DNA of 64,000 nucleotides from Sporosarcina ureae (GTDB lineage: Bacteria; Bacillota; Bacilli; Bacillales_A; Planococcaceae). Below the pieces are notes generated by a model, which saw only the letters and a program-made list of their open reading frames with translations, searched no databases and was not told the DNA's origin. The translations under genes were made by a program, and so were the position numbers. Position 1 is the first letter of the stretch; each line of letters opens with the position of its first letter. Shown here in pieces: positions 1-15,573 of the stretch. The stretch lies in NCBI RefSeq assembly GCF_002101375.1, contig NZ_CP015207.1, positions 1,728,001-1,792,000 of the forward strand, read 5' to 3'.

Positions 1-1158
1 ATGGCGCTGTTCTGCAGTGACTCGGTCGATCATCGCGGTTTGCTGTTGACTCGTCGCTTGGTTTATCGACTGTTGCGTGACTGCGGCTGCTTTGCGCAAA
101 GGGATTTGCATTCCGCTTTGATACGATGCCACCTCCAAGTAGCGGTTTATTTCTTCCGCTACTTCTTCAATAAATAGAAGGGCCTTCTCTGAATGCAAAC
201 CAATTTTCTGGTCAGCTATAGCGGTTTCCCAACCTGCCACTTCAACTCGTAAAGTATGTCCCCATATGCTCTCAATGCCGTTTAGTAAACGCACAAGTAT
301 GGTACAAGTACGGGACAACTCCGTTTCCTGCAATACGTTCGGCAATTGAATATATGAGGACCATGCAGCTTTTTCCTGTCTTTTTTCATTGTGAAAATGT
401 ACAACAATTCCTTCACTTCCAAGCAGCTGTTTCATCAAACCAATGGCAGAAACTTTTTTATAAGCAATAGAAGAACCGTCAGCGGCATCGGGAAACCATT
501 CACTGTTGGAGTTGCCATGCGAACAACTCAATGCGCGCTCTGTTTGTTCAGCTTCAAATAAACTCCAAGAGCCGCACGCTTTTACTTGTTCCATAAAATA
601 ATCGGGTATACGTATATGCTTTTCTTTTACTTTGCTCGATAAAAATGATGCGATTCTACTGTCAGCAATATCCATGGTATATTGCTCTACTCTCGTCTTT
701 CGCCGATAGAATGTCTTACCGAAGAACGACATCACTTCAGCTGGTAAAGTCACATAGCCATGACTCAGTAGCCAATATGCTTCCTGTACTTTTTGTAGGC
801 GCTGGATAGTTTCATGCTGCATGGCGGCCATTGCTATGAGCATAATCCTCTCTTGAGGCAGTCCTATCGGTTTGTCATAATAATCCGATGTTACAAATTC
901 ATTCATATATTGTTGCAACAGTGCAGGAGGTATCAATCGATCGCGTTCAGCTACAATCTGTAAGCCAAGCCATTTGATTTCGCTCGCTGAATAGTCATAG
1001 ATCCATTGACCATATAATCCATCCTGTAACAGTTTCCTGACTACTTGATGAAATCCTGAATACACAGGTCTTCCACGCTGTTGTTCTACTTGTTTATACA
1101 ATAACTGCAACAGTTCACGTTCATGTATACATTCCTTCTTCTGTTCAAATACTCTCAT
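1..1158 (-). CDS. Degenerate ribonucleotide-reductase alpha-like protein, partial (3' end outside window)
   Basis: The open frame runs 386 codons from ATG at 1158 (AAAGGAG 8 nt upstream) and leaves the window without a stop. Several blocks match class I RNR large subunits in the right order: LPQERIMLIAM (about residues 100-110), QEAYWLLS (125-132), IRIPDYFMEQV with SWSLFE (182-202), an SNLCTEI-like block that reads PNVLQET (273-279), and RLLNGIES (290-297). The roughly 130-residue stretch that normally lies between the second and third blocks, which carries the SSC redox cysteine, is missing. The radical-site cysteine of NLCTE is replaced by Leu. The N-terminal ATP cone is also absent. I infer a catalytically dead paralogue or partner of an RNR subunit; an active nrd gene may lie just left of the window. 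Expression should fall when B12 is present, because the gene follows a cobalamin riboswitch and terminator. Confidence 0.6.
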   Translation of the reverse strand, partial: MRVFEQKKECIHERELLQLLYKQVEQQRGRPVYSGFHQVVRKLLQDGLYGQWIYDYSASEIKWLGLQIVAERDRLIPPALLQQYMNEFVTSDYYDKPIGLPQERIMLIAMAAMQHETIQRLQKVQEAYWLLSHGYVTLPAEVMSFFGKTFYRRKTRVEQYTMDIADSRIASFLSSKVKEKHIRIPDYFMEQVKACGSWSLFEAEQTERALSCSHGNSNSEWFPDAADGSSIAYKKVSAIGLMKQLLGSEGIVVHFHNEKRQEKAAWSSYIQLPNVLQETELSRTCTILVRLLNGIESIWGHTLRVEVAGWETAIADQKIGLHSEKALLFIEEVAEEINRYLEVASYQSGMQIPLRKAAAVTQQSINQATSQQQTAMIDRVTAEQRH

Positions 1159-1183
1159 GTCACGGTCTCCTTTCGTAAACAAC

Positions 1184-2171: not shown

Positions 2172-2210
2172 AAAAAATCTCCCTAAGTCCTCTTTACGAC
2201 TTAGAGAGAT
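2172..2210 (-). terminator. Terminator at the end of the eut-mdh transcription unit
   Basis: On the minus strand a stem ATCTCTCTAAGTC pairs with an imperfect GACTTAGGGAGAT around a short loop and is followed by TTTTTTG. It begins 7 nt after the mdh stop codon and closes the 13-kb leftward gene cluster. Confidence 0.85.
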
Positions 2211-2216
2211 CAGTAG

Positions 2217-3170
2217 TTATAAGGACATTTGCTTTTCGCAAATGTCGATGACTGCTCTGACAGAGTCAGCTGACTGATCAAGTGCTGTTTGTTCTTCCTT
2301 TGTTAACGGAAGTTCAATCACACTTTCGATACCATTGCCCCCGAGAACAGTGGGTACGCCTAAGTAAATATTTTGATATCCATATTCACCCTCTAAATAA
2401 GCGATGGACGGCAAAATTCGTTTCTTATCTTTAATAATTGCCTCAGCCATCTCTACTAAAGCCGCAGCGGGTGCGTAATAAGCGCTACCATTACCTAGTA
2501 GTGAGACAATTTCACCGCCGCCTTTTCGAGTACGCTCCACAATGGCTTCTAGCCGTTCATTCGATATGATTTTATCCAACGGAATGCCGCCGGCGTAAGA
2601 GTAACGCACAAGTGGCACCATATCATCTCCGTGTCCGCCAAGTACAAAGCCCGAAATATCCTCTACAGAAATATTCAATTCTTCGGAAATGAACGTATTG
2701 AAACGTGCAGTATCAAGCACACCTGATTGTCCAATTACACGATTTTTAGGAAATCCAGTTGTTTTATAACATACATATGTCATCGCATCTACCGGATTAC
2801 TTAAAATCAGCACGGTGCTGTCTGGGGCATGACGCTTCACTTGCTCGGAAACGGAACGCATAATCTTCGCATTGGTTGCAACTAAATCATCGCGACTCAT
2901 ACCTGGTTTACGTGCAACACCCGCAGTAATGATAACCATTGCTGCACCTTCAATATCCTCGTAATTAGATGTACCTGTAATGCGAGAATTAAATTGTTGT
3001 ACAGGACTCGTTTGAAGAAGATCTAGTGCTTTACCTTTGGTTGGATTAGAGAGATCCGGTATATCGACTAATACGATGTCACCTAGTTCTCTCTGTGCTG
3101 CCATCAATGCTACGGTTGAACCGGTGTGACCAGCTCCAATGACTGCAATTTTATGTCGTTTGAAAGCCAT
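2217..3170 (-). CDS. mdh: Malate dehydrogenase (LDH-type MDH)
   Basis: Oxidises malate to oxaloacetate with NAD, or the reverse. The 317-aa product closely resembles Bacillus Mdh: Rossmann motif GAGHTGS near the N-terminus, the MDH-specific substrate loop [11 protein letters not shown] whose Arg (rather than the Gln of lactate dehydrogenases) selects malate, [20 protein letters not shown] and the catalytic [12 protein letters not shown] at 3170 is chosen because AAAGGAG sits 8 nt before it; an upstream in-frame GTG overlaps that RBS. It is the last gene after the eut shell genes, 60 bp from the preceding BMC gene with no terminator seen between. Usually mdh sits with citrate-cycle genes, so this position is odd; it may recycle NADH made by EutE. 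Confidence 0.93.
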
Positions 3171-3230
3171 GGAAACCACTCCTTTCTATAGATTTCACTA
3201 TGAGTAATACGCTTATAGCACATGTATGCC

Positions 3231-3572
3231 TCAGTCTTTCTTCGGTGCCTTCTTCACTTCTGCCAGTTTCTTTACTTGTGGAATTTCTGAAGTAGTCGGC
3301 ACTAGGGGTTTCACCATGCCATATACTGAATCATCGGGACGCGGTATTACATGCGCGCCTAGTAATTCACCTACACGCGCTGCTGCGTCGCGACCTGCAT
3401 CAACAGCTGCCTGAACTGCTCCAACGTCACCTTGAACGATGACCGTAACGATTCCGCCATCCACCATCTCCTGTGATACTAACTCTACGTTGGATGCTTT
3501 CACCATGGCGTCCGCCGCTTCAATCGATCCAATCAATCCTTTTGTCTCAATCATTCCGATCGCTTGACTCAT
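3231..3572 (-). CDS. BMC-domain shell protein with Lys-rich C-terminal tail
   Basis: 113-aa hexameric (BMC-H) microcompartment shell protein of the EutM/PduA type. A single BMC domain occupies about residues 1-88 ([53 protein letters not shown]). A roughly 25-residue tail follows, ending [14 protein letters not shown], which is not part of the core fold. ATG at 3572 has AAAGAGGTG 6 nt upstream, and the gene overlaps the end of eutN by 26 bp, suggesting translational coupling. It is a paralogue of the 94-aa shell protein at 4775-5059 and could form a distinct facet tile or bind cargo or nucleic acid through its basic tail (inference). Confidence 0.93.
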
Positions 3573-3852
3573 GTATATCACCTCTTTTCACTTCTGTTGA
3601 ATCGATAATACCAATAATGACCGCGTCGATTGGGATCGGGTTTTCTTTCGGTAAAATAAAGCGTGAAGAACCGCCACTCGTAATGAGTACTTCATCACCA
3701 ACCCCTGCTCCAATCCGATCTGCCGCGACCATATGCGACTGTATACTATTGCCGTGTGCATCAATCGGCTGGACGATTAACAGCTTAAGTCCTGATAATC
3801 CATCCTCTTTACGGGTTGCCCATACATTACCAATCACTCTACCCATTCGCAT
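3547..3852 (-). CDS. eutN: EutN/CcmL-family pentameric vertex protein
   Basis: 101 aa. Begins with the family start M(x)[13 protein letters not shown] and continues with [11 protein letters not shown] and [23 protein letters not shown], the usual EutN/CcmL core. Members form pentamers that cap the vertices of the icosahedral shell. ATG at 3852 follows AAAGGTG with 7 nt spacing. It lies 16 bp after pduL and overlaps the next BMC gene. The last ten or so residues ([12 protein letters not shown]) form a short polar tail. Confidence 0.93.
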
Positions 3853-3868
3853 GCGTAATCACCTTTTT

Positions 3869-4741
3869 CTACTTTCTACTAGATATCGTTTTACCGAGTT
3901 CACGTGCTGTATCTCTTGCTAGTGCCGTCACAATTGTGCCTTTATTAATAACAATTTCCTTTTCTGAAATCTCGGACACGTCTTCAGCCGACAAAAGCTT
4001 TTTTGTGAATTCAAATGTCACTGGAGCATTTACTGGAGTAGTCGTCGTCACCGTTTTCATCATCGTTTGTACAGGTACCGTTTCTTTTGCATCATCCGAT
4101 TTCACTAGACGACCAATCGACCCCTGTGAAATGAAACCTGCATTTGCTTCATCGGTATCAATATGCATTTCAAGACGATATCGCTCATTCACTCGAATGC
4201 GTACATTGCGGAATGAAATAGATCTTATTCCGTCCGCTTCCACTGTGACATATTCCCCGTCTTCCACGCCAAAGCGCGTAGCGTCAGTGGGCGCCATATG
4301 GATATGTGCCTGTGCAATAATAAGACCTTGGTTTATATGCACACTACCTTTTGGTCCAATTAATGTAATCGGTGCTGATCCTTCAATATTGCCGGATTCC
4401 CGAAGTGGGGGCTTGACGCCGAGCTTCATAGCATCCGTAAAGCTGACCTCAACTTGGGTCGCTTTTCGGACAGGCCCTAAAATACGCACACGTTCAATGC
4501 TGCTTTTAGGTCCTGCAATCATCACCGTTTCATTGGCGGCGAATTGGCCCGGCTGTGAAAGCTCGGACCGCTGTGTCAATTCATACCCTGTGCCAAACAA
4601 TACTTCCACATGTTCAGGCTGTAAATGTACGTGACGGGCGGAAACTGCAATAGGAACCGCTCGTTCCGGCAATTGAACGGGAGCTTTCCCTAATTGTCCA
4701 AGAATTTCTCCGACAATTTGTTCAATCAATTGCTGATTCAT
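3869..4741 (-). CDS. pduL: Phosphate propanoyl/acetyltransferase (PduL-type) with N-terminal targeting helix
   Basis: 290 aa. Converts acetyl-CoA plus phosphate to acetyl-phosphate and CoA in the compartment lumen, standing in for EutD. Two PduL half-domains are visible, each with a metal-ligand HxH motif: ARHVHLQPEHV near residue 35 and AHIHMAPTDATRFG near 148. Residues 1-18 (MNQQLIEQIVGEILGQLG) make an amphipathic helix typical of encapsulation peptides. About 90 residues follow the catalytic part, including a Thr/Val-rich linker and a closing KGTIVTALARDTARELG segment, so the protein is longer than the usual ~210 aa. It is flanked by eutM and eutN in the same operon. The function call is strong; the role of the extension is unknown. 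Confidence 0.9.
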   Translation of the reverse strand: MNQQLIEQIVGEILGQLGKAPVQLPERAVPIAVSARHVHLQPEHVEVLFGTGYELTQRSELSQPGQFAANETVMIAGPKSSIERVRILGPVRKATQVEVSFTDAMKLGVKPPLRESGNIEGSAPITLIGPKGSVHINQGLIIAQAHIHMAPTDATRFGVEDGEYVTVEADGIRSISFRNVRIRVNERYRLEMHIDTDEANAGFISQGSIGRLVKSDDAKETVPVQTMMKTVTTTTPVNAPVTFEFTKKLLSAEDVSEISEKEIVINKGTIVTALARDTARELGKTISSRK

Positions 4742-4774
4742 TTAGTTCACGCCTTTCTACTATGTCAGCAGTGA

Positions 4775-5059
4775 TTATTCGCTTTTTGGTAACATCATTT
4801 CTAGTTCATTATGTGGTCTTGGAATTACGTGAACAGAAAGCAATTCGCCCACACGTTGTGCTGAAGCAGCACCTGCGTCTGTTGCCGCTTTTACTGCGCC
4901 TACATCACCGCGTACCATAACTGTTACGATTCCGCCGCCAACATGTACTTTACCTACCAAGTTTACGCTTGCTGCTTTCACCATTGCGTCTGCTGCCTCG
5001 ATTGCACCGATTAATCCTTTAGTTTCTACCATTCCTAATGCTGTACCTTCTCTGTTCAT
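4775..5059 (-). CDS. eutM: EutM-type hexameric microcompartment shell protein
   Basis: 94 aa, one BMC domain with the classic [20 protein letters not shown] start, [23 protein letters not shown] and [11 protein letters not shown] end. These small BMC-H proteins form the main facets, with a central pore for substrates. AGGAGG precedes the ATG at 5059 with normal spacing. It lies 24 bp after eutE. It differs from the 113-aa paralogue nearer mdh mainly by lacking the Lys-rich tail. Confidence 0.95.
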
Positions 5060-5082
5060 AATTGTTTCCTCCTAATAGTGTT

Positions 5083-6594
5083 TTATTTTGTAAGTTGTTT
5101 AACGATTTCACTAACTAAGTTCTGTACTAATGCTGGATCGATGTTGTTGTTTGTTGTGGCTGATACATTGTTCATCACACTAGATACGAGCTGGTCATTG
5201 GAACTCTCTACAGGCTCTGAGTGCTTCGGCAGTTGTACTTCCTTCGTGCCATATGCCATCCGCTTAATGTTCAACAAATGCTTAGCTGTGACATTGTCTG
5301 ATGTAATATTACCGCCAAATGTTCCGCACCCTAATGTGAATGATGGCATTAAACCTGTCGTACCACCAACTGCTCCAATAGAAGACATGGTATTGACCAA
5401 AATACGGGATACTGGCATTTCCATAGCGAATTCACGAGCTACTGCATCGATTTCGGTATGTAGTGCCAAGCTATGTCCACGCCCGCCAAGATTTAGCAAG
5501 TCGAGGCACACTTCTTTCGAGTGCTTCACACCATCCACGACATACATAGCGAAAATCGGTGATAATTTCTCCAATGAAAACGGTACGTCTTTACCAACTT
5601 TCGTTTCCATCCCAACAATCAAGCGCGTGCCTTCAGGTAAAGAAATGCCTGCCATTTTCGCGATGAACTGTGGGCTCTTACCGACCACTTTCGGATTCAC
5701 CTTACCGGGTACCGGTGAGATGATACCTTCCATAATCTTTTTCTCATCATCCGATAAAATATACGCGCCGTTTTTCTTCAACTCACGCGTAACGAGATCC
5801 ACGACGTGCTTATCGACAACAATGGCTTGCTCGGTTGCACAAATCGTACCGTAGTCAAATGATTTGCTGTCCACAATGTCTTTTACTGCTTTTTCAATCT
5901 TTGCGGAACGTTCGATATACACTGGCACATTCCCAGGCCCTACACCGTAAGCCGGCTTACCGGAGCTATATGCCGCTTTGACGAGCGCACTACCGCCTGT
6001 TGCAATGATTAGATTAACATCTTTATGCGACATTAATTGCTGTGTAGCTTCCATCGAAGCCAACGTGAGACATTGAATTAAACCTTCCGGGGCACCCGCT
6101 GCAACAGCTGCTGCATCACATACTTTTAATGCTTCGTGTGTGCATTTCACTGCGTAAGGGTGTGGACTCACGACAATAGAATTTCGTGTCTTCAATGAAA
6201 TCAACGTTTTGAAGAACGCTGTCGATGTTGGGTTGGTTGTCGGGATAATAGCGGCAACTACACCGAACGGAGCAGCAATTTCCAAGACTTTATTCATATG
6301 GTCTTCTTTGATGACACCGACTGTTTTCATATCTTTAATACTTTCATATACGTCTCGGGAGCCCACTTCGTTCTTAATTTTCTTATGAGCTGCTACCCCC
6401 ATACCTGTTTCTTCTACTGCTAGTTGCGCGAGGCGACCGGATTGTTCAAAGGCAGCATCCGCTACGGCTTTGACAATCTTGTCGACTTGTTGCTGAGAAT
6501 AGCCCATAAATTTCTCTTGTGCTTCTTTTGCAGTTTGGACGGCTGTACGCATTTGTTGCAAAGCTAATAAATCATTATCCACTAATTGGACCAA
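5083..6594 (-). CDS. eutE: Acetaldehyde dehydrogenase, CoA-acylating (EutE), C-terminal targeting helix
   Basis: 503 aa. Oxidises acetaldehyde with CoA and NAD to acetyl-CoA in the compartment. The aldehyde dehydrogenase fold shows [14 protein letters not shown] near 117, [10 protein letters not shown] near 219 and the catalytic Cys252 in [12 protein letters not shown]. The start is TTG at 6594, preceded by AAAGGAG with about 9 nt spacing. The C-terminal residues 479-503 (ending [14 protein letters not shown]) form an amphipathic helix behind an Asn/Ser-rich linker and look like an encapsulation peptide; EutE of enteric bacteria carries its peptide at the N-terminus instead. NADH produced here needs an oxidant, yet no eutG alcohol dehydrogenase is in the locus. 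Confidence 0.95.
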
Positions 6595-6625
6595 ATTTAA
6601 CCACTCCTTTCTACATGCTTATCTA

Positions 6626-7270
6626 TCAGTAACTTAACGGATCATCTGCCATCTTCTGTATCGCTTCCCGGAATGCGTCGGCTGCAGCATTGCAAGAAGA
6701 TTGACTGCCTGTCAACAGGCCACCGCCGAAGTTTGTTTCGGAGGGAGGTGCATAGAGTACACAAAGTGTAACGTCAGCTGCTTTTAAAGCAGCGTCCAAA
6801 CCGATAACAGCTTCAACAGGCGGTGCAATCAAGTATGCCAATGACTGTCCATCGGATACATTGGCCATGTCAGCCAAATAACTCCCACAACTGGAGATGG
6901 TATGCGCATATAACGCATGATTCGGGTTTCCGTTGATCGCTTCAAAATACGCTTCGTGCTCTATCGTTATACGAATTGAATCAAGGCCGCTTTTCACTTC
7001 TTCCGGTGACGAGCCCGCAATGATTCCAATAAACTCTCCCGATAACGGGCCAGAAGAATGAGCTGAACCCGCGTAAAAGCTTTTTGCGTAGACCACTTCC
7101 ACATCACTATGCTTCGTTGCTGCATCAATTGCTGTATAGCCGACGTCGTCAATTGTCGTCGTTACTATCCCAAGGCTTCGCTGGTTAGACTTCAATCGAA
7201 ACTTCTCAGCAAGTTCCGGACTGACATTTGATATGACTTGCATCGACAATATATCTGCATAGATTTTCAT
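6626..7270 (-). CDS. eutL: EutL trimeric (tandem-BMC) shell protein
   Basis: 214 aa, two fused BMC domains that form pseudohexameric trimers with a gated central pore. Family signatures include DDVGYTAIDAATKHSDVEVVYAKSFYAG in the first half and a second half with SYLADMAN, PPVEAVIGLDAALKAA and FGGGLLTGSQSSC. ATG at 7270 follows GGGAGGGCAA; the upstream in-frame start at 7327 would overlap eutC and has no better RBS. It lies 16 bp after eutC. EutL in other systems binds ethanolamine near the pore. Confidence 0.95.
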   Translation of the reverse strand: MKIYADILSMQVISNVSPELAEKFRLKSNQRSLGIVTTTIDDVGYTAIDAATKHSDVEVVYAKSFYAGSAHSSGPLSGEFIGIIAGSSPEEVKSGLDSIRITIEHEAYFEAINGNPNHALYAHTISSCGSYLADMANVSDGQSLAYLIAPPVEAVIGLDAALKAADVTLCVLYAPPSETNFGGGLLTGSQSSCNAAADAFREAIQKMADDPLSY

Positions 7271-7286
7271 TTGCCCTCCCCCTTCC

Positions 7287-8276
7287 TTATCCTTCCTTTT
7301 GAACAAGCGATACACCGCTCGCTTCATACTTTAAGATTTTCTGAATAATCGTCCCGAGGAATGCACCCGCCTCGACAGGAGGGATTCCTCCTTTATGGAT
7401 ATTCGAGATGACCATACGATCTGCTTCAATCGTGCCATGTCGAGGTTTGTAGCACATATAAGCACTTAGCGACTCTGCAGAAACAAGACCTGGACGTTCA
7501 CCGATCAGCATGATGACAACATCAGGTTGCAACAGCTCTCCGATATCATCCATTACGGCAACTCGTCCCTTATCGACATAAAATGTTGTTCCCATATCAA
7601 TATTCAAGTTGTTAAGTGATTGTTGTAATGACAAGTAGACGTCTTCCAAGTTTTCTTCTATCGCTTTCGCACTCAGTCCGTTTGACGCTACGATTTGTAC
7701 GACGGGTGATTTCTTACAACGCTCCTGAATTAAAGATCTTGCTTCGTCTGAAAGCTTTCTACCAAGATCCGGGCGTCGAATGTATTCTTCTTTATCTGCC
7801 ACTTTGGATTGCACTTGGAACAATCCTAGCTGTTCAAGCAAGTTATCCGGTACTTCACCGTAGACCGCGTCAACCGCTGCTGCATGATCCAGTCGGAACT
7901 GTAGCCACGTTTTTGTTTTCGGACGTGAGCCTGCGCGCCCAACTCCTACGCGCGCTGGTGTTTTCTTACGATATTCTGCCAGCTTATCTTCTTCAGAAGC
8001 TATTTGTGGTTTTGATTTCGGGTTACCATACGCTGTCGTCGGCTTGGGTTTTACAGTAGAAATATTTCGCTTCGGCTCTTTCGTCGTACTATGGAATGTC
8101 ACTGCGCCACTAGGCGAATTCCCCACAGTTTCCACTTCCAAATGTCCGATCGGTTGCTGTGAAAATAGTTCTATTTTCTGTTCATTCGTTGACGGTTGTA
8201 TTTTTTGACTGCTATTTGCGGCCTCCAGTTTTTCCACAACCATTTTTGTGATTTGCTGAATTAATTCTTCATTCAA
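7287..8276 (-). CDS. eutC: Ethanolamine ammonia-lyase small subunit
   Basis: Together with EutB it forms the AdoCbl-dependent lyase that splits ethanolamine to acetaldehyde and ammonia. Residues 1-20 (MNEELIQQITKMVVEKLEAA) form an amphipathic helix like known EutC targeting signals. Residues ~20-115 are a low-complexity linker rich in Lys, Pro and Ser, and the lyase domain follows (ARVGVGRAGSRPKT, LQFRLDHAAAVDAVYG, SNGLSAKAIEENL, ERPGLVSAESLSAYMCYKP). I place the start at TTG 8276 because GGAGG is 9 nt upstream; an ATG two codons earlier (8282) abuts the RBS. At 329 aa it is longer than enteric EutC because of the linker. Confidence 0.94.
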   Translation of the reverse strand: MNEELIQQITKMVVEKLEAANSSQKIQPSTNEQKIELFSQQPIGHLEVETVGNSPSGAVTFHSTTKEPKRNISTVKPKPTTAYGNPKSKPQIASEEDKLAEYRKKTPARVGVGRAGSRPKTKTWLQFRLDHAAAVDAVYGEVPDNLLEQLGLFQVQSKVADKEEYIRRPDLGRKLSDEARSLIQERCKKSPVVQIVASNGLSAKAIEENLEDVYLSLQQSLNNLNIDMGTTFYVDKGRVAVMDDIGELLQPDVVIMLIGERPGLVSAESLSAYMCYKPRHGTIEADRMVISNIHKGGIPPVEAGAFLGTIIQKILKYEASGVSLVQKEG

Positions 8277-8289
8277 GTCCATCCACCTC

Positions 8290-9654
8290 CTATCGATTGA
8301 AGAGCGTGAGATCTCCGGCATGTTTGCTCAGCATGCCATTTTCATAAATCCCCATCTTTTCAAGCCATTTCAAGTATTCAGGTGCTGGTGTTTTGCCCAT
8401 CGTCTGAAGAACAGTCGCCACGTCATGGAAGCTCATGGACTGGTAATTCAACATAACGTCATCACCCATTGGTGCTGCGATGATGAAGTTCACACCTGCC
8501 GCTGATAATAAGATACTTAAATCCTCAATGTCATTTTGATCTGCTTTAATATGGTTCGTATAGCAAATATCTACACCCATCGGAAGACCATGAAGCTTGC
8601 CCATGAAGTGATCTTCAAGGCCAGCACGGATTACTTGCTTGCTGTTGTACAAGTATTCTGGTCCAATAAATCCGACGACTGTGTTAACGATGTACGGATC
8701 ATAATGTCGTGCAAATCCGTAGTTACGTGCTTCCATAGTTACTTGATCTACGCCGTAATGCGCTTCAGCCGATAATTCAGATCCTTGTCCTGTTTCAAAA
8801 TACAACGTTTGAGGACCTGTACCCGTGCCCATTTTCAGTGATAGATCTTTCGCTTCTGCAATTAATTCTGCCGAAATCCCAAATGAACGGTGAGCTTTTT
8901 CTGTTCCCGCGATACTTTGGAAAATCATATCGGCAGGTGCCCCCTGTTCGATTGCTTTCATCTGTGTCGTAACATGTGCGAGTACGCAGTTTTGCGTCGG
9001 AATTTCCCATTCATCAATGAAATCTTTCGTTGCATTCAACACACGCTTTACACTTTCCACAGAATCATCTACTGGATTGATTCCAATTACCGCATCACCG
9101 ATACCGTAAGACAAGCCTTCTTTTAACGAAGTGATGATTCCATCAATATTGTCTGTCGGATGATTCGGTTGCAGACGGGAAGACAATGTACCTTTTTGAC
9201 CGATTGTAATATTACATGTTGATAAGATTTCAATTTTATTAGCCGCGTGCACTAAGTCGAGATTAGACATTAGCTTTGTGACGGCTGCGATGACTTCCGA
9301 AGTCAATCCACGGCTGAGACGCTTTAATTCGCGGTCGCCTACTTCATTACTCAAAATGTATTCACGCAGCTCTGCGATGCTCCAGTTCTGGATTTCACCA
9401 TAGACCTTCTCGTTAATATCATTTTCAATAATTAGTGAGACTTCATCACTTTCAATTGGAATCAGTGGATTGTTACGGATATCGCTTACAAGCAACTCAC
9501 TGACGACTGTTTTGGCAGCGATTCGTTCTTGCACGGTTTCCGCCGCAATTCCTGCGAGACGATCTCCAGATTTCTCTTCATTCGCTTTTGCTAGCACTTC
9601 TTTTAGGTCATGGAACACATATCGTTCGCCGCCTAATGTAGTGGATAAATTCAC
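8290..9654 (-). CDS. eutB: Ethanolamine ammonia-lyase large subunit
   Basis: 454 aa, the catalytic TIM-barrel subunit that binds ethanolamine and, with EutC, adenosylcobalamin. It begins NLSTTLGGERYVFHDLKEVL and contains the characteristic KANEEKSGDRLAGIAAET, NNPLIPIESDEVS, GINPVDDSVESVKRVLN, GTGTGPQTLYFETGQGSE and MGVDICYTNHIKADQND segments. The start is GTG at 9654, preceded by AAAGGAGG with 8 nt spacing; a longer open frame upstream overlaps eutA and is not used. It lies 14 bp after eutA and 13 bp before eutC. Confidence 0.97.
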   Translation of the reverse strand: MNLSTTLGGERYVFHDLKEVLAKANEEKSGDRLAGIAAETVQERIAAKTVVSELLVSDIRNNPLIPIESDEVSLIIENDINEKVYGEIQNWSIAELREYILSNEVGDRELKRLSRGLTSEVIAAVTKLMSNLDLVHAANKIEILSTCNITIGQKGTLSSRLQPNHPTDNIDGIITSLKEGLSYGIGDAVIGINPVDDSVESVKRVLNATKDFIDEWEIPTQNCVLAHVTTQMKAIEQGAPADMIFQSIAGTEKAHRSFGISAELIAEAKDLSLKMGTGTGPQTLYFETGQGSELSAEAHYGVDQVTMEARNYGFARHYDPYIVNTVVGFIGPEYLYNSKQVIRAGLEDHFMGKLHGLPMGVDICYTNHIKADQNDIEDLSILLSAAGVNFIIAAPMGDDVMLNYQSMSFHDVATVLQTMGKTPAPEYLKWLEKMGIYENGMLSKHAGDLTLFNR

Positions 9655-9668
9655 GTACAAGACCTCCT

Positions 9669-11114
9669 TTACGTTGTATGGAAAGTTAAGGTTTTCACGA
9701 CGACCGGCACGACGCCTGAAGTGAGCGCATTGCCGATATCGATGTAATCGCCTGTTTCCACATTGATTTGATCTATACAAATAATACTTTGTTTCACGTG
9801 TAACGCTGCCAGTGTTTGGCCAATCACTTTGGCATGATCTGATTGAATGACCAATATAATCGGTTGTTCAGGTCGCGGCCTCTCGTTCATGATCTGAACA
9901 ATTGCACTAGCCAGTTTCTGCACATCGCGAAATCCGAGATAGGGAAGATTGGATAGATAAAGTGCGAAGTTTTGCCCTTCTTTTGCTGAATCGTATAAAG
10001 TAACTGCCTGCTGAACCGCATCTTCGAACTGGGATAATCCTGTCTCCAGATTTTCTTCAAAGTCGTATTGATAAATTGGGATGTTCTTTAATGGCAACTC
10101 ATGTGGTGCAACCTGTATGGTAGCCCCGCTAATTTCAGTAGTCTGTGTTCCAGCTCCCAACACAGTAGCCCTCACAGTTTCCACTGGCTCCTGCCAAGTA
10201 AAGTGTTGCAACGATGTATTTTGTAGCAGCGCTTCCGCGAGTTGAATTCCAATATCATCGTACTTCGCTTCTTGAACTTCTTCAGTTGTGTGATGATACA
10301 TACATTCGGATATACCACCTGAAAAGACGATCGTATCGACCGGCTGCAACCAGTTCGGTTCATGACCGAGCAGCAGCACTTGATCTTGAGCATGAACTTC
10401 ATTTTTCAAAATACGTGCCATCGCTTCTGCCATATAAGTCGTTACAAAAGTTACTGCTGATGCATTTTGTGGATCTCCAACTTGTAACGTATAGCCTTGG
10501 TCTTGCAATAACCGTTCGACAGGCGGTGAAATTGTACGGACTTTTCCGTGTTCAAATTCGATCAAGCGACCGCCAATATGCATCGTACATGTGCCAAGCA
10601 GTTGCTTGTCTTGGAACACTGCAATATTTGCCGTTCCGCCGCCAATGTCTATATTGGCGATTACTTGCCCACTTTTTCCAGACAATTCATAGCTGCCTGA
10701 TCCTTTTGCTGCAATGATGCCTTCTAAGTCAGGGCCTGCCGTTGCTACGAGGAAATCACCTGCTTCATCAGATAAAAGATGCAACATTTCACTGGCATTT
10801 CGCTTGGTAGCGGTTTCACCGGTAATAATAACAGCTCCTGTTTCGATCTGAGAAGGCTGGATTTCGGCTTTTTCATATTCTCTGCGTATAATCTCTTGGA
10901 CACCTGCTACATCAATCGTCACTGCATCTTGTAATGGCGTTCGGAATACCGGACTTTTATAAAGTATTTCTTTGTCTGTAATTTCTATTCTTGGCACATG
11001 TGTTGCGCCCGCCACATTACGTAGGGAAAATCGACTGATAATCAGTTTCGTCGTGCTTGTGCCAATATCAATTCCTGCACTAATAATGGTTTCGTGCTTA
11101 TTGAAATTGCTCAC
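9669..11114 (-). CDS. eutA: EutA, ethanolamine ammonia-lyase reactivase
   Basis: 481 aa. EutA uses ATP to release damaged cobalamin from EutBC so that fresh AdoCbl can bind. An actin/Hsp70-like ATPase fold is indicated by AGIDIGTSTTKL at the N-terminus and IDIGGGTANIAVFQ near residue 165, with IVFSGGISECMY later. GTG at 11114 is preferred because GGAG lies 7 nt upstream; the GTG two codons earlier touches the RBS. Its own promoter and an attenuator leader precede it (11160-11272), so it begins a sub-operon with eutB onward. Confidence 0.93.
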   Translation of the reverse strand: MSNFNKHETIISAGIDIGTSTTKLIISRFSLRNVAGATHVPRIEITDKEILYKSPVFRTPLQDAVTIDVAGVQEIIRREYEKAEIQPSQIETGAVIITGETATKRNASEMLHLLSDEAGDFLVATAGPDLEGIIAAKGSGSYELSGKSGQVIANIDIGGGTANIAVFQDKQLLGTCTMHIGGRLIEFEHGKVRTISPPVERLLQDQGYTLQVGDPQNASAVTFVTTYMAEAMARILKNEVHAQDQVLLLGHEPNWLQPVDTIVFSGGISECMYHHTTEEVQEAKYDDIGIQLAEALLQNTSLQHFTWQEPVETVRATVLGAGTQTTEISGATIQVAPHELPLKNIPIYQYDFEENLETGLSQFEDAVQQAVTLYDSAKEGQNFALYLSNLPYLGFRDVQKLASAIVQIMNERPRPEQPIILVIQSDHAKVIGQTLAALHVKQSIICIDQINVETGDYIDIGNALTSGVVPVVVKTLTFHTT

Positions 11115-11159
11115 GCCCACACTCCTTTCTGATTACTTATTGTCCTCCACTTTTGATAT

Positions 11160-11218
11160 AAAAAAGACGCCTTTACAAACCCATGGATTTTTCCACGGGA
11201 TGTAAAGGCGCCTTTGCC
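11160..11218 (-). promoter_or_regulatory. Attenuator leader of eutA with ANTAR-type hairpin
   Basis: On the minus strand a strong terminator (GCGCCTTTACA pairing TGTAAAGGCGT, tip CCCGTGG-AAAAAT-CCATGGG, then TTTTTT) lies between the eutA promoter and gene. Its 5' arm is overlapped by a small hairpin GGC-AAAGGC-GCC (11207-11218). The hexaloop has A at position 1 and G at position 4, the signature of RNA targets of ANTAR antiterminators. EutV binding would therefore prevent termination when ethanolamine and AdoCbl signals are present. A convincing upstream partner hairpin was not found. Confidence 0.75.
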
Positions 11219-11243
11219 GTTTTTATTCACTTGTATGAAATTT

Positions 11244-11272
11244 ACTATATCAAATTCCTACTTACCTGTAAA
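11244..11272 (-). promoter_or_regulatory. SigA-type promoter upstream of eutA
   Basis: TTTACA and TATAGT are separated by exactly 17 bp on the minus strand, just inside the gap after the eutP stop. The start point would fall about 20 bp before the ANTAR/terminator leader, giving eutA-eutB-and-later genes separate control. Confidence 0.7.
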
Positions 11273-11277
11273 GAATA

Positions 11278-11775
11278 TTAGCCGAGAAAGATCAAGTGCT
11301 GGTCAGCTTTTGACTCTGCGTAATGTCGCATCGCTTGAAGGTCGTTAAGCTTTGTCAATTCCTTAAGATGTTCGATGCCCATGCCCGTTTTAGAAGAAAC
11401 CATAACGATAGGCCCTTCGTTCATGACAGTCTTTAACATGCCAAGTGAACGATCTATATCCGCATCCGGAAGGTCGCATTTGGTGATCACTCCAATGGGT
11501 AGTTTCGGGATGCCCATGCTGAAACCTGGCGGGAAAATAAGCTTCTCACTCGTTGCGTCTTGCAAATACAATACGTGCGTTACTTCAAGCGCGGTAGCCA
11601 TAATATTTTTGTAGAACATTGGATTTTCTGTGTACTCGCCCGGAGTATCAACAATCCAATCATAATAACTGAGCGTTTGCGTTTTGAAAGCTTCTACTTC
11701 TCGGCCCAATAAGGCATTTGTCAATGTAGACTTTCCCGCCCGTACCGCACCGATCAGCATCGCCTTGTTTCGCAT
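11278..11775 (-). CDS. eutP: EutP-family P-loop protein
   Basis: 165 aa Ras-like GTPase-fold protein with Walker A GAVRAGKST, DTPGEYTENP (G3-like) and TKCD (G4). Members are found in eut/pdu loci; some were reported to act as acetate kinases, which would let acetyl-phosphate from PduL yield ATP. ATG at 11775 has GGAG 8 nt upstream; the GTG three codons earlier overlaps the RBS. It follows eutS by 12 bp. Confidence 0.9.
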   Translation of the reverse strand: MRNKAMLIGAVRAGKSTLTNALLGREVEAFKTQTLSYYDWIVDTPGEYTENPMFYKNIMATALEVTHVLYLQDATSEKLIFPPGFSMGIPKLPIGVITKCDLPDADIDRSLGMLKTVMNEGPIVMVSSKTGMGIEHLKELTKLNDLQAMRHYAESKADQHLIFLG

Positions 11776-11787
11776 CGTCCTCACTCC

Positions 11788-12129
11788 TTATGATTTTGTA
11801 ATTTCAGCTGGCGTATACTTTAACTTCTCCGATAAAAAGCGATTTATCTCTAGCATAGCCATCTCTACTTCCGAAACACTACCTACAACGACAAGACTAC
11901 CGGTAAATCGATCGAGGAATCCAATGCGAACATTCGCTGCTTTCGTAGCCAAGTCACCTGCAATAATTACCGTTTCACTCGGTGTGCAAGTGAGGATACC
12001 TAAGGCACCGGCCTCTTGGATGCCTAACTTCTGAAACATATCAGGATCGGGATTAGCAATCAAATGACTGAGTGTAATCTGTTTTCCTGGAACAAATTCC
12101 TGTATAAATCGTTTCTTTTCTTCGCTCAT
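11788..12129 (-). CDS. eutS: EutS shell protein (circularly permuted BMC-H)
   Basis: 113 aa. The order of elements, with an N-terminal beta segment FIQEFVPGKQITLSHLIANP before AGALGILTCTPSETVIIAGDLATKAANV and GSLVVVGSVSEVEMAML, is that of the permuted EutS/PduU group, which form bent hexamers at shell edges. ATG at 12129 has AGGGTG about 8 nt upstream. It lies 22 bp after eutH and 12 bp before eutP. Confidence 0.93.
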   Translation of the reverse strand: MSEEKKRFIQEFVPGKQITLSHLIANPDPDMFQKLGIQEAGALGILTCTPSETVIIAGDLATKAANVRIGFLDRFTGSLVVVGSVSEVEMAMLEINRFLSEKLKYTPAEITKS

Positions 12130-12151
12130 TATACACACACCCTATATAGTT

Positions 12152-13420
12152 TTATACTTTAGTAGCAGAAGCTTCTGGTTCAATGTTTTCAGTATCGTAC
12201 TCACCTTTTTTAATAATTCCAGCTTCACGATCTTGCTTCTCTAGCTTTAATGCTGTTGGTACAGATAGCTTGTACGCAATAATAATTGCAATGATTCCTG
12301 CACTTAATTTACCTAGTATAACCGGTAAAATAATATTTGGCTGGAAATTCGCTGTGAACGATAAATGATCGCCCAACAAGAATGCAGCACAGACTGCGAA
12401 CGCAATATTAATAACTTTATCTTTTGGCCTCATATAACGAACCAATGAGAACATCGCCAAGATATTTGCGACGGTTGCAAGTAGACCAGCGCTACCTTCA
12501 GGTGAAAGCCCAATTTTCTTCCCCGCAGATTCTAAAGGTCTTCCCATATACTTCCGAATCAAATAAATCATTGGGAATGCACCCGCTAGCATGATACCAA
12601 TGTACCCCGCCGTTTCAAGTGCACGGAACTGGTCTGCTTTATCTGCCATAATGGGATCGAAGCCCCAAACACCAAAGATTTTAGTGAAAATGCCTGTAAA
12701 TATTTCAACAATAGAGAACACTAACACTAGTTTAATAGCAGCGTCCATCACGCGGCCAAAAATCATAAACCCGTTAATCATCATACGCGGGAAGAACTTC
12801 AGTCCGACTGCAATCAACACAACAAATATTAATAATGGCAATAAATTTATAAAGATCTGTAAATAACTAATTGCAAACTCATAATTGGATGTAGCAGTCG
12901 TGCTAATTACATCACGCACATCAGTGTTAAATAACACTACTAAAACAGATGCGATAAAAGCACCTATTGGAATCGTTAATACACCTGACATGATACCAAG
13001 CGCCATATATTTATGGTCACGCTTATCTAGCATCGCAAGTCCCATTGGAATAGAGAATACAATGGTTGCACCAGACATAAAACCGACGATTAACGCCATA
13101 ATCCATCCTTCATTTGTTACTTTCAAAGCTTCTGCTAACTGATATCCGCCCATATCTGAAGCCAAAATCGTCGTTGCTGCAATAGCTGGATCTGCTCCTA
13201 TTGAGTTAAAAATGGGACCGATAAATTTACTGATGAACCACGTTAAGTATGGTATGGACGCCATAATTCCCGCCGCAGGAACGAAGATATGTCCTACTGC
13301 GTGTAATCCAGACATGAATTCCTTACCTAATCCTTCTTCCGGATTTTTGATTGAAGCAAATGCCCCTGCAACTGCACAGGCCATGATGATATACACAATC
13401 ACCGTGCCGATCATTTCCAT
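12152..13420 (-). CDS. eutH: EutH ethanolamine transporter
   Basis: 422-aa polytopic inner-membrane protein with about ten or eleven hydrophobic segments. Family segments include ACAVAGAFASIKNPEEGLG near the N-terminus, ILASDMGGYQLAEAL near 110, FSIPMGLAMLDKRDHKYMALG and LLATVANILAMFSLV. It allows ethanolamine entry when external levels are low. A GAGGGGG RBS precedes ATG 13420. The gene is first after the eutV terminator/antiterminator leader, so it should be induced by EutWV. Confidence 0.95.
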   Translation of the reverse strand: MEMIGTVIVYIIMACAVAGAFASIKNPEEGLGKEFMSGLHAVGHIFVPAAGIMASIPYLTWFISKFIGPIFNSIGADPAIAATTILASDMGGYQLAEALKVTNEGWIMALIVGFMSGATIVFSIPMGLAMLDKRDHKYMALGIMSGVLTIPIGAFIASVLVVLFNTDVRDVISTTATSNYEFAISYLQIFINLLPLLIFVVLIAVGLKFFPRMMINGFMIFGRVMDAAIKLVLVFSIVEIFTGIFTKIFGVWGFDPIMADKADQFRALETAGYIGIMLAGAFPMIYLIRKYMGRPLESAGKKIGLSPEGSAGLLATVANILAMFSLVRYMRPKDKVINIAFAVCAAFLLGDHLSFTANFQPNIILPVILGKLSAGIIAIIIAYKLSVPTALKLEKQDREAGIIKKGEYDTENIEPEASATKV

Positions 13421-13531
13421 CTGAGTTTCCCCCTCTTACTGTCATATTGTGTAGTCTTTTACTTAATCCTAGTCTAAAAAACACCGCCCTCTTATCACTA
13501 TTCGTGTGTTATTCGCGAAAAAAGAAGACAA

Positions 13532-13573
13532 AAAGACGCTTAAAGAATGTATCTCTTTAAGCGTCTTTGCTTA
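13532..13573 (-). promoter_or_regulatory. Terminator/ANTAR antiterminator leader between eutV and eutH
   Basis: On the minus strand AAAGACGCTTAAAGA pairs with TCTTTAAGCGTCTTT and is followed by TTTTTG, a strong terminator after eutV. Overlapping its 5' arm is TAAGC-AAAGAC-GCTTA (13558-13573): a perfect 5-bp stem with a hexaloop having A1 and G4. It matches the published eut leader consensus AGCAANGRRGCUY at all but one position. EutV should stabilise this hairpin and let polymerase read into eutH-S-P. Confidence 0.85.
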
Positions 13574-13580
13574 GATCTAT

Positions 13581-14150
13581 TTACTTGTGCGAATCAATAA
13601 TTTCCATGGCAAGTGACTCCATTGTCATTTGCCGAGACATACTCGTATCACGCATTCTTTTAAAAGCTTGTTGCTCGGTTAATTGCTCCATGTTCATCAG
13701 AATACCTTTTGCCCGCTCTATGACTTTTCGCTTTTCCACTTCTTGCTTAGCCTGCTGAACATCTTTCTTCAGCCGTTTTGCTTTGTCTGATTGGTGAAGA
13801 GCTACTTCGATTGCCGGTATTAAATTGGATTCAGATATAGGTTTGACCAAATAGCCAACTATATTGTCTTGTTGTGCTTTTTCTACGAATTCCTTTTGGC
13901 TGTACGCGGTGATAATGAGAATAGGTATATCCAGTTGTTCTCCAATGATACGGCTCGCTTTCAGACCGTTCATCTTCGGCATTTTGATATCCATCAAAAT
14001 CAAATCCGGTTTATGCAAGAAGGCTAGCTCGATCGCCCTGTCCCCATCGCCTGCTTCCCCAACTACTTCATAGCCATGGTCTTGCAAGGTCATTTTCAGG
14101 TCCATGCGAATGATGGATTCGTCTTCCGCAATCAAGATTCGTTTACTCAT
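13581..14150 (-). CDS. eutV: EutV, response regulator with ANTAR RNA-binding domain
   Basis: 189 aa. Receiver domain (1-120) with acidic pocket AEDES, phospho-acceptor Asp54 in LMDIKMP, and GYLVKPIS. A coiled segment then leads into a C-terminal ANTAR domain (about 135-185: VIERAKGILMN, EQQAFKRMRD, MTMESLAMEI). Phosphorylated EutV dimers bind paired hexaloop hairpins and block terminators, and two such leaders lie downstream. ATG at 14150 has GGAGGTG upstream and overlaps the end of eutW by 8 bp, indicating coupled translation. Confidence 0.95.
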   Translation of the reverse strand: MSKRILIAEDESIIRMDLKMTLQDHGYEVVGEAGDGDRAIELAFLHKPDLILMDIKMPKMNGLKASRIIGEQLDIPILIITAYSQKEFVEKAQQDNIVGYLVKPISESNLIPAIEVALHQSDKAKRLKKDVQQAKQEVEKRKVIERAKGILMNMEQLTEQQAFKRMRDTSMSRQMTMESLAMEIIDSHK

Positions 14151-15573
14151 CAAAAATTTCCACCTCCGCACCCACTGGAAAATTAACTACTGCATGAGTT
14201 CCGATCTCCCTGGGCACATATAGAAACTCACCATTCAAGTCATTGGTAACCAAATTGTGAATGATTTCCGTACCAAGAGATGTTTGCGGATTCTTCATTC
14301 CAACGCCGTTGTCGGACACATGAATCTCTACAAAATCATTTTCCACGGTAAATTCCACATCAATAATCCCCTCTTCTTTGCCTTGAAATGCATGTTTTAA
14401 AGAGTTTTGTATAAGCTCATTGACGATAAGCGCGATTGAAACCGCTTTCTTAGAGGTTGTTACTATTTTATTGTTATTCGGCTCAATAATCAAGTCTACT
14501 TTCAAATTATATTCATTCAGCACCATAGTTGAGCATATTTTTCTTGTCAAATTTATGATATTTACATCATCGTCATCTGCATGTTCTTTAGTGAGGATAA
14601 TTTCATAAACAGACGAAATACTGTATATACGATTAAGTGTTTCTTCAAATGAAGAGCGACTTTCGGCCGGCATACCATTACGCATTTGCAGCCTTATCAA
14701 GCTTGCAACTGTTTGCAGATTATTTTTTACACGATGATGTATTTCTTTTATCACGACTGACTTCATCATCAATTCTTTTTCCTTTGTACGAAGTTCGGTA
14801 ATATCTTGTATAATCAACAACGTTTCTTGAGATTTATTTTTTTCACGCATTCTTATCTTTTTCACTATTAAGTTTTTCCGCTGGATTGTTAGTTCAAAAA
14901 CAAACACATCATCTTCCTGCTCATAAACCGTCCTCAAAAAAGGTAATAATTCTAATAAATCACGGTTAAGCACATCATCTTTCTCACTCATTTCAGAAAT
15001 GAGTCTTAACCCTGAAGGATTCGCGTATACCAACCGATTACTTTCATCTGTCAAAATGAGCATTTCCATCAATAAGTCCGAAACTACACCCAGTCCCGAA
15101 TTTGTCATCTGATCTTCCGCGGTTTCTGTAACTACCGAAAATTTCTGTACATTGCCTGTTGGAGTCGGTGAAACAACCTGCTTCTCTGAAATCAGTACAC
15201 CAATCACTTGATGGTTTGTATTCTTAATTGGTACCACGGTCTGGTCCACCACGATACCTTCTTGTGTCATCGCCTGTCTTATGATCGACTTTTTTCCGTT
15301 GCGATAAGAATAAAATACACCTGGCTCAAAAGATTCAAAAACAATCTTTCCAATAACCGAGTTATTATATAGCGGTGTACTACCGACTGGAAAAGCCTCC
15401 GCAACGACTATTGCTTGGTTACTTGGTTTTAATTTGCAATCAATGAACATATATGAATCCGATAAATCAGCGTAAGTCTGCAAACTAAACGCCATTTCCT
15501 GAAGAATCTGCACATCTTGATCAGTCAGTTCCGTATGCTGTTTACAAAGTTGCTCTACTGTTGATTTTACCAC
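14143..15573 (-). CDS. eutW: EutW, ethanolamine-sensing histidine kinase
   Basis: 476 aa, soluble (no membrane segments). An N-terminal GAF-like sensing region occupies about 1-150, a PAS-like domain 165-265, a HisKA_2-type dimerisation box follows with the phospho-acceptor His in KEIHHRVKNNLQTVASLIRLQ, and a HATPase domain ends the protein (NELIQNSLKHAF, HVSDNGVGM). It autophosphorylates on ethanolamine binding in related systems and passes phosphate to EutV. GTG start at 15573 with AAGG about 10 nt upstream; a SigA promoter lies 55-80 bp upstream. First gene of the locus. Confidence 0.93.
   Translation of the reverse strand: MVKSTVEQLCKQHTELTDQDVQILQEMAFSLQTYADLSDSYMFIDCKLKPSNQAIVVAEAFPVGSTPLYNNSVIGKIVFESFEPGVFYSYRNGKKSIIRQAMTQEGIVVDQTVVPIKNTNHQVIGVLISEKQVVSPTPTGNVQKFSVVTETAEDQMTNSGLGVVSDLLMEMLILTDESNRLVYANPSGLRLISEMSEKDDVLNRDLLELLPFLRTVYEQEDDVFVFELTIQRKNLIVKKIRMREKNKSQETLLIIQDITELRTKEKELMMKSVVIKEIHHRVKNNLQTVASLIRLQMRNGMPAESRSSFEETLNRIYSISSVYEIILTKEHADDDDVNIINLTRKICSTMVLNEYNLKVDLIIEPNNNKIVTTSKKAVSIALIVNELIQNSLKHAFQGKEEGIIDVEFTVENDFVEIHVSDNGVGMKNPQTSLGTEIIHNLVTNDLNGEFLYVPREIGTHAVVNFPVGAEVEIFDE

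Follow-up and report, generated by a model that had tools for sequence, protein, structure and literature searches.

A conserved non-catalytic relative of the ribonucleotide reductase large subunit behind a cobalamin riboswitch in Sporosarcina

A gene of Sporosarcina ureae that extends into the 64,000-nucleotide stretch of DNA analyzed here (the window; contig NZ_CP015207.1, positions 1,728,001 to 1,792,000) belongs to a real, conserved family of non-catalytic homologs of the ribonucleotide reductase (RNR) alpha subunit, encoded behind a cobalamin (B12) riboswitch. The family combines homology to RNR, loss of the residues involved in catalysis and purifying selection, the features of an RNR-derived pseudoenzyme. 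Given this conservation, the paralog is probably regulatory rather than junk. The reading that we prefer, at a probability of roughly one in four, is that these proteins are genus-specific pseudoenzymes that were cut down stepwise from the class I enzyme NrdE and would act as a brake or buffer, switched on at low B12, by capturing the radical subunit NrdF. The features of the locus are listed in Table 1.

Table 1. Features of the paralog locus and its conserved neighborhood (window coordinates).
Feature	Position	Strand	Remarks
NrdE-derived non-catalytic paralog	1..1158	-	codons 1-386 of 424; Pfam and alignment
Shine-Dalgarno sequence AAAGGAGA	1166..1173	-	7 nt before the paralog ATG
Intrinsic terminator (hairpin followed by a U-run), 3' of the riboswitch and 5' of the paralog start codon	1184..1221	-	
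Cobalamin riboswitch aptamer RF00174	1332..1508	-	95.1 bits vs gathering threshold 31.5, E 2e-22
Terminator-like hairpin 3' of mdh, separating the eut operon from the paralog unit	2176..2211	-	
Ethanolamine utilization (eut) microcompartment locus with mdh; conserved neighbor, not part of the gene	2217..15573	-	

The paralog is a complete frame of 424 codons on the minus strand that starts with the ATG at window positions 1158-1156; its last 38 codons and stop occupy the 117 bases to the left of the window, and the whole gene spans L004:12884-14158. Two Pfam domains of the RNR large subunit score above their cut-offs (PF02867, 39.5 bits vs 23.9; PF00317, 29.5 bits vs 28), with the best barrel stretch covering only 63 of the 523 positions of PF02867, and the protein stays below the NCBIfam equivalog cut-off for NrdE (PRK09209; 96.3 bits vs 1057), which the NrdE of the same genome passes with 1268.8 bits. 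The RNR landmarks picked out in the first-pass annotation (PQERIMLIAM, QEAYWLLS, RIPDYFMEQV and RLLNGIES) are present and, in the alignment, collinear with this NrdE. The possibility that the missing core lies nearby, masked by misassembly or a frameshift, was considered and rejected: the frame is open, the gene recurs in 20 other genomes, and the active nrdE lies about 550 kb away.

The good ribosome-binding site and the B12 control element that had been proposed from the sequence are both in place (Table 1), and both are general features of the family. All 21 known loci retain a good ribosome-binding site, a cobalamin riboswitch located 151-214 nt upstream of the start codon, and a hairpin with a U-run 92-152 nt after the riboswitch (19 found by scan, and those of L043 and L045 by separate inspection). 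In the window, this hairpin has a folding energy of -15.5 kcal/mol (z -3.70), and none of 200 shuffled sequences is equally stable. A further terminator-like hairpin follows mdh, so the paralog looks like a transcription unit of its own. In the source genome, cdaR starts 66 nt downstream of the paralog and may be read together with it; as a constant operon partner, cdaR was rejected, being present in many loci but not found in L042, L043 and the tiers of about 616 and 275 aa described below, and reduced in L040 to a piece of 85 aa. Between mdh and the riboswitch, positions 1675-1845 of the minus strand hold a 56 aa frame with a ribosome-binding site (CAGGAGGTAA) and a CGCLC motif near its end.

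The loss of the catalytic apparatus is evident from an alignment of 20 paralogs with 24 NrdE sequences, in which the one frameshifted paralog (L041 in genome G032) was left out of the residue counts. Nine positions, namely, C216, N434, C436, E438, C470, Y723, Y724, C735 and C738 in the numbering of the NrdE of the same genome, are conserved in 24 of 24 NrdE sequences and in 0 of 20 paralogs. Judging by motif, we take C216 to be the first redox cysteine, N434, C436 and E438 to form the radical-cysteine block, C470 to be the second redox cysteine, Y723-Y724 to be the Tyr-Tyr pair of the radical path, and C735 and C738 to be the C-terminal CxxC tail. The first cysteine and the radical-cysteine block are deleted in paralogs of all sizes, with nearly identical borders in the forms of about 616, 471 and 424 aa. 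The first-pass annotation was right about the loss of the segment with the first redox cysteine, which is a deletion relative to the genome's own NrdE, and mistaken in assigning a Leu to the radical-site Cys: the NLCSE block (434-438 of NrdE) is deleted outright rather than substituted, and the paralog segment SSYIQLPNV aligns with NrdE SSINLGRAV, just past the second active-site cysteine, as is clear from the 614-618 aa forms. The absence of an ATP cone, also noted at first pass, turns out to be uninformative, as the active NrdE of this genome likewise has no Pfam ATP-cone match. The segment that follows the first cysteine is mostly or wholly cut out in paralogs of every size, which have lost most of the S-site segment. 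According to an excerpt of a study of Bacillus subtilis NrdE (PMC6572854), the S-dimer interface includes residues 175-238, which come shortly after C170. With the catalytic positions and a segment of this type lost, the paralog should neither catalyze nor dimerize in the way NrdE does, and, all catalytic positions being gone, almost certainly would not reduce ribonucleotides.

Within the genus, the paralog is present in 21 of 68 genomes, including the source genome, and absent from 47; it is thus dispensable in many. The 21 carriers, ten of which are named genomes, all Sporosarcina, comprise 14 with matches at no less than 58% identity, three with long forms and four with short forms. By size, the proteins fall into four tiers: 614-618 aa (three genomes), 471 aa (four), 406-424 aa (nine, plus the frameshifted gene of G032) and 271-279 aa (four), the longest being about 50% identical to NrdE; the S. 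ureae laboratory strain DSM 2281 carries a paralog of 424 aa. Twenty of the 21 frames are intact. The 20 further genomes provide the close homologs with internal deletions that the first-pass annotation called for. Its expectation of a constant length linked to a riboswitch holds for the riboswitch, which together with a terminator is present in all relatives, and fails for the length, which comes in four tiers. Similarly, the compact form that it looked for across Bacillales is shared, with its deletions, by relatives in the genus, but no such form turned up in the 18 remaining genera of the family among the matches listed for the 261 genomes searched. In that search, long forms would have ranked high enough to be among the listed matches, and the shortest form was sought separately; a search at the order level returned the same number of genomes.

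The paralog evolves under selection at the protein level. Pairwise dN/dS values among paralogs, again leaving out the frameshifted gene, range from 0.087 to 0.248 in those 40 of the 51 pairs for which dS is finite, dS being saturated in the other 11. In 12 pairs compared for nrdE, dN/dS is 0.017-0.060, so the values of the paralog are 2 to 10 times higher; because the nrdE frames were taken from stop to stop, a few upstream codons may raise the nrdE figure. The constraint on the paralog is weaker than that on the enzyme and far from neutral. Slow decay of an eroding nrdE duplicate, with a frame that is open by chance, could produce the drop in size from 616 to 471, 424 and 275 aa, the one frameshift in 21 copies, the absence from 47 of the 68 genomes and the elevated dN/dS. 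However, dN/dS stays between 0.09 and 0.25 until dS saturates, all but one of the 21 frames are open, and the start, ribosome-binding site, terminator and riboswitch are all kept, which makes this explanation very unlikely and bears out the initial view that the gene is no ordinary decayed pseudogene.

In a maximum-likelihood tree (LG+F+G4, 424 columns, three outgroup sequences; no NrdE sequence for G030, G032 and G044, and the frameshifted paralog left out), the 20 paralogs form one clade (UFBoot 100) beside the NrdE of the genus (95), with a support of 97 for the joint clade. The branches are long, which calls for caution, and the common deletion borders and common neighborhood agree with the tree, pointing to a single origin of the family by duplication of the genus's nrdE. 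A cobalamin riboswitch precedes nrdE in all 19 paralog-carrying genomes examined (G030 and G032 left out) and also at two of the three outgroup loci, so that the duplicate most simply inherited its riboswitch. Very probably, then, nrdE was duplicated once, together with its riboswitch, in an ancestor shared by these Sporosarcina species, after which one copy would have remained the enzyme and the other would have lost the catalytic core and been retained by selection as a shorter protein.

The RNR barrel family matches three places in the S. ureae genome: the paralog, a 740 aa NrdE and an 853 aa NrdJ. The active nrdE is located at about 2.28 Mb, in an operon nrdE - flavodoxin - nrdF with a cobalamin riboswitch of its own (81.4 bits); the flavodoxin scores above the cut-off for PRK09271 and just below that for the RNR flavodoxin TIGR01754. 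An active RNR had been suspected immediately to the left of the window: a class I enzyme does coexist with the paralog, but at a distance of about 550 kb rather than next to it. NrdJ (PRK08115) is the B12-dependent class II enzyme, and no cobalamin riboswitch was found within the 12 kb examined near it. NrdJ matches at 79% identity or more are present in 21 of 21 paralog carriers vs 29 of 47 other genomes (Fisher 6e-4, with relatedness ignored). Nine cobalamin riboswitches were found genome-wide. At L088, L089 and L091, a cobalamin riboswitch precedes a long frame with a signal-peptide-like start, possibly that of a B12-capture protein. One near-complete genome of the genus, G026, contains NrdJ and eut, and NrdE was not found in it.

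In Streptomyces, class I RNR genes are controlled by a cobalamin riboswitch and coexist with a B12-dependent class II enzyme. Sporosarcina resembles Streptomyces in having both B12-riboswitch class I genes and a class II RNR and differs in that a controlled gene encodes a non-catalytic paralog. Going by the riboswitch class, bound cobalamin would promote formation of the terminator, and under cobalamin scarcity the paralog would be made together with NrdEF.

The most conspicuous constant of the family is its neighborhood. The mdh gene and a microcompartment cluster lie near the paralog in 21 of 21 loci (20 loci and the window), although in L047 and L049 the stretch examined includes mdh and a shell protein with identities of only 65-67%, with eutE just outside. 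In the window, EutB, EutC and EutH score above their NCBIfam cut-offs, EutA and the acetaldehyde dehydrogenase give matches that fall short of the cut-off, and the remaining eut gene names were assigned by reading the sequences. At a threshold of at least 79% identity, eutE is found in 25 of the 68 genomes, including all 21 paralog carriers (Fisher p 7e-14, ignoring relatedness and physical linkage); the four others are G020 (NrdJ not found), G026, G027 and G052. Put differently, the paralog is present in 21 of the 23 genomes that combine eut, NrdE and NrdJ and in none of the 45 remaining genomes (Fisher 1e-15, a value that also disregards relatedness and linkage). The location next to eut and the co-occurrence with eut, NrdE and NrdJ are new observations.

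Such a strict link with eut suggests a different possible partner. The protein could have left RNR biology behind and serve the ethanolamine pathway, holding back or protecting, at low B12, the B12-dependent EutBC encoded next door. Against this stand the terminator-like hairpin that separates the eut and paralog units and the two genomes, G027 and G052, in which eut, NrdE and NrdJ are present and the paralog was not found. Furthermore, in ten genomes (among the matches listed), three of them without the paralog, the distance between nrdE itself and eutE is 10-34 kb, with nrdE located elsewhere in the S. ureae group. This proximity makes local duplication a likely origin of the paralog, and the eut neighborhood can then stem from local duplication and joint loss. 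We consider a role in the ethanolamine pathway unlikely, yet a rival to be taken seriously.

The same neighborhood brings to mind Rli55 and EutX of Listeria and Enterococcus, the B12-riboswitch RNAs of eut loci that are non-coding sponges for the response regulator EutV. If the Sporosarcina locus worked in this way, the transcript rather than the protein would matter. The likeness lies in the B12 riboswitch adjacent to a eut locus that encodes a response regulator and a sensor kinase, resembling EutV and EutW, and in hexaloop hairpins of the ANNGNN type before eutH and eutA (window 13558-13573 and 11207-11218, minus strand), which, by reading, overlap terminator stems, as we would expect of EutV-type antitermination. 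Unlike Rli55 and EutX, the Sporosarcina transcript contains a coding sequence under selection, and an RNA sponge would leave the selection on the protein in every tier unaccounted for. A crude scan found no tandem ANNGNN (ANTAR-type) hairpins in 21 of 21 paralog transcripts, which is weak counterevidence, since the scan had no positive control and detected none at the eut leaders either. We regard an RNA sponge as highly improbable.

Returning to NrdF capture as the preferred reading, the proposal is that the paralog works by protein contact on the class I RNR, which appears plausible from the retained segments at somewhat less than even odds, with NrdF, held by its C-terminal tail, as the first-choice target. 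The class I enzyme would thus be throttled while the cell shifts its dNTP synthesis from the B12-dependent to the oxygen-dependent route. In all four tiers, the helix that directly precedes the lost Tyr-Tyr pair is retained, with L710, A714 and W715 unchanged, and a second retained helix (PDLFMEQV) presumably lines the cleft for the NrdF tail. In B. subtilis NrdE, this hydrophobic cleft, which receives the C-terminus of NrdF, is partly buried by residues 660-665, located 19-24 positions ahead of Y684 of the radical path, according to another excerpt of PMC6572854. The persistence of the helix in every tier together with this cleft underlies our preference for a class I RNR target. In Escherichia coli, the inner part of the beta tail lies on the hairpin 642-655 and next to the Tyr-Tyr pair, as described in part of PMC11482829. 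The matching region is missing in three of the four tiers, which counts against NrdF-tail capture, and the retained helices are no more NrdE-like than the rest of the protein (consensus identity 0.33-0.39 vs 0.00-0.48 in other segments).

Strong divergence from NrdE across most of the retained segments is what would be expected of a protein that acquired a new function, with neither an RNR nor a eut partner, such as nucleotide binding or some unrelated action at low B12; we found no positive evidence of an RNR- and eut-independent function and consider it improbable. A structure model built from the paralog sequences alone was useless (mean pLDDT 41.7). When 15 NrdE-type sequences from viral contigs (15 of 21 loci) were added, the model reached a pLDDT of 82.2 and a pTM of 0.78, and Foldseek matched it to the RNR alpha subunit 7agj_B (E 6.7e-18, TMq 0.78, rmsd 7.3); because NrdE sequences guided this model, the RNR-like fold indicates consistency rather than independent proof.

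Among known proteins, the paralog is closest to class I NrdE of the PRK09209 type, encoded in nrdE-flavodoxin-nrdF operons, with which it shares homologous segments and the same kind of upstream riboswitch; unlike NrdE, it lacks the catalytic, radical-path and redox residues, most of the S-site segment, the radical-cysteine block and the C-terminal CxxC tail. Inactive relatives of the RNR large subunit are reportedly found in betaherpesviruses, where the R1 homologs HCMV UL45 and MCMV M45 are said to be kept for contact functions and to act on host signaling. These viral homologs are near full length, whereas the paralog is bacterial and chromosomal, is reduced to 271-618 aa and lies behind a B12 riboswitch. 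A literature search at the level of titles and the beginnings of abstracts, with most subscription papers outside its scope, found no bacterial case of an inactive RNR alpha subunit. Control of RNR is exerted by nucleotides, in bacteria also by NrdR, and in eukaryotes by small inhibitor proteins. A catalytically dead alpha subunit that is kept by selection and governed by a vitamin would represent a new layer of bacterial RNR control. The four size tiers amount to a natural deletion series that could reveal which part of RNR alpha suffices for a non-catalytic job.

Eight short NrdE frames (G045 and G060 in the genus; G119, G118, G111, G115, G098 and G186 outside it), among the matches listed, were checked as further cases and rejected, none being the paralog: the nrdE frame of G060 breaks, that of G186 runs off the contig, and the other six are complete NrdE genes that carry an insert immediately behind the radical-site cysteine (residue 436). 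In many genomes of the genus, the NrdJ match falls into pieces, with breaks near residues 271, 483 and 653, as if by introns or inteins, and the source copy is whole. The six nrdE inserts (L154 and L156-L160; one in the genus, five in another genus) range from a few hundred to about 1100 bases and likewise look as if an intron or intein had settled at residue 436.
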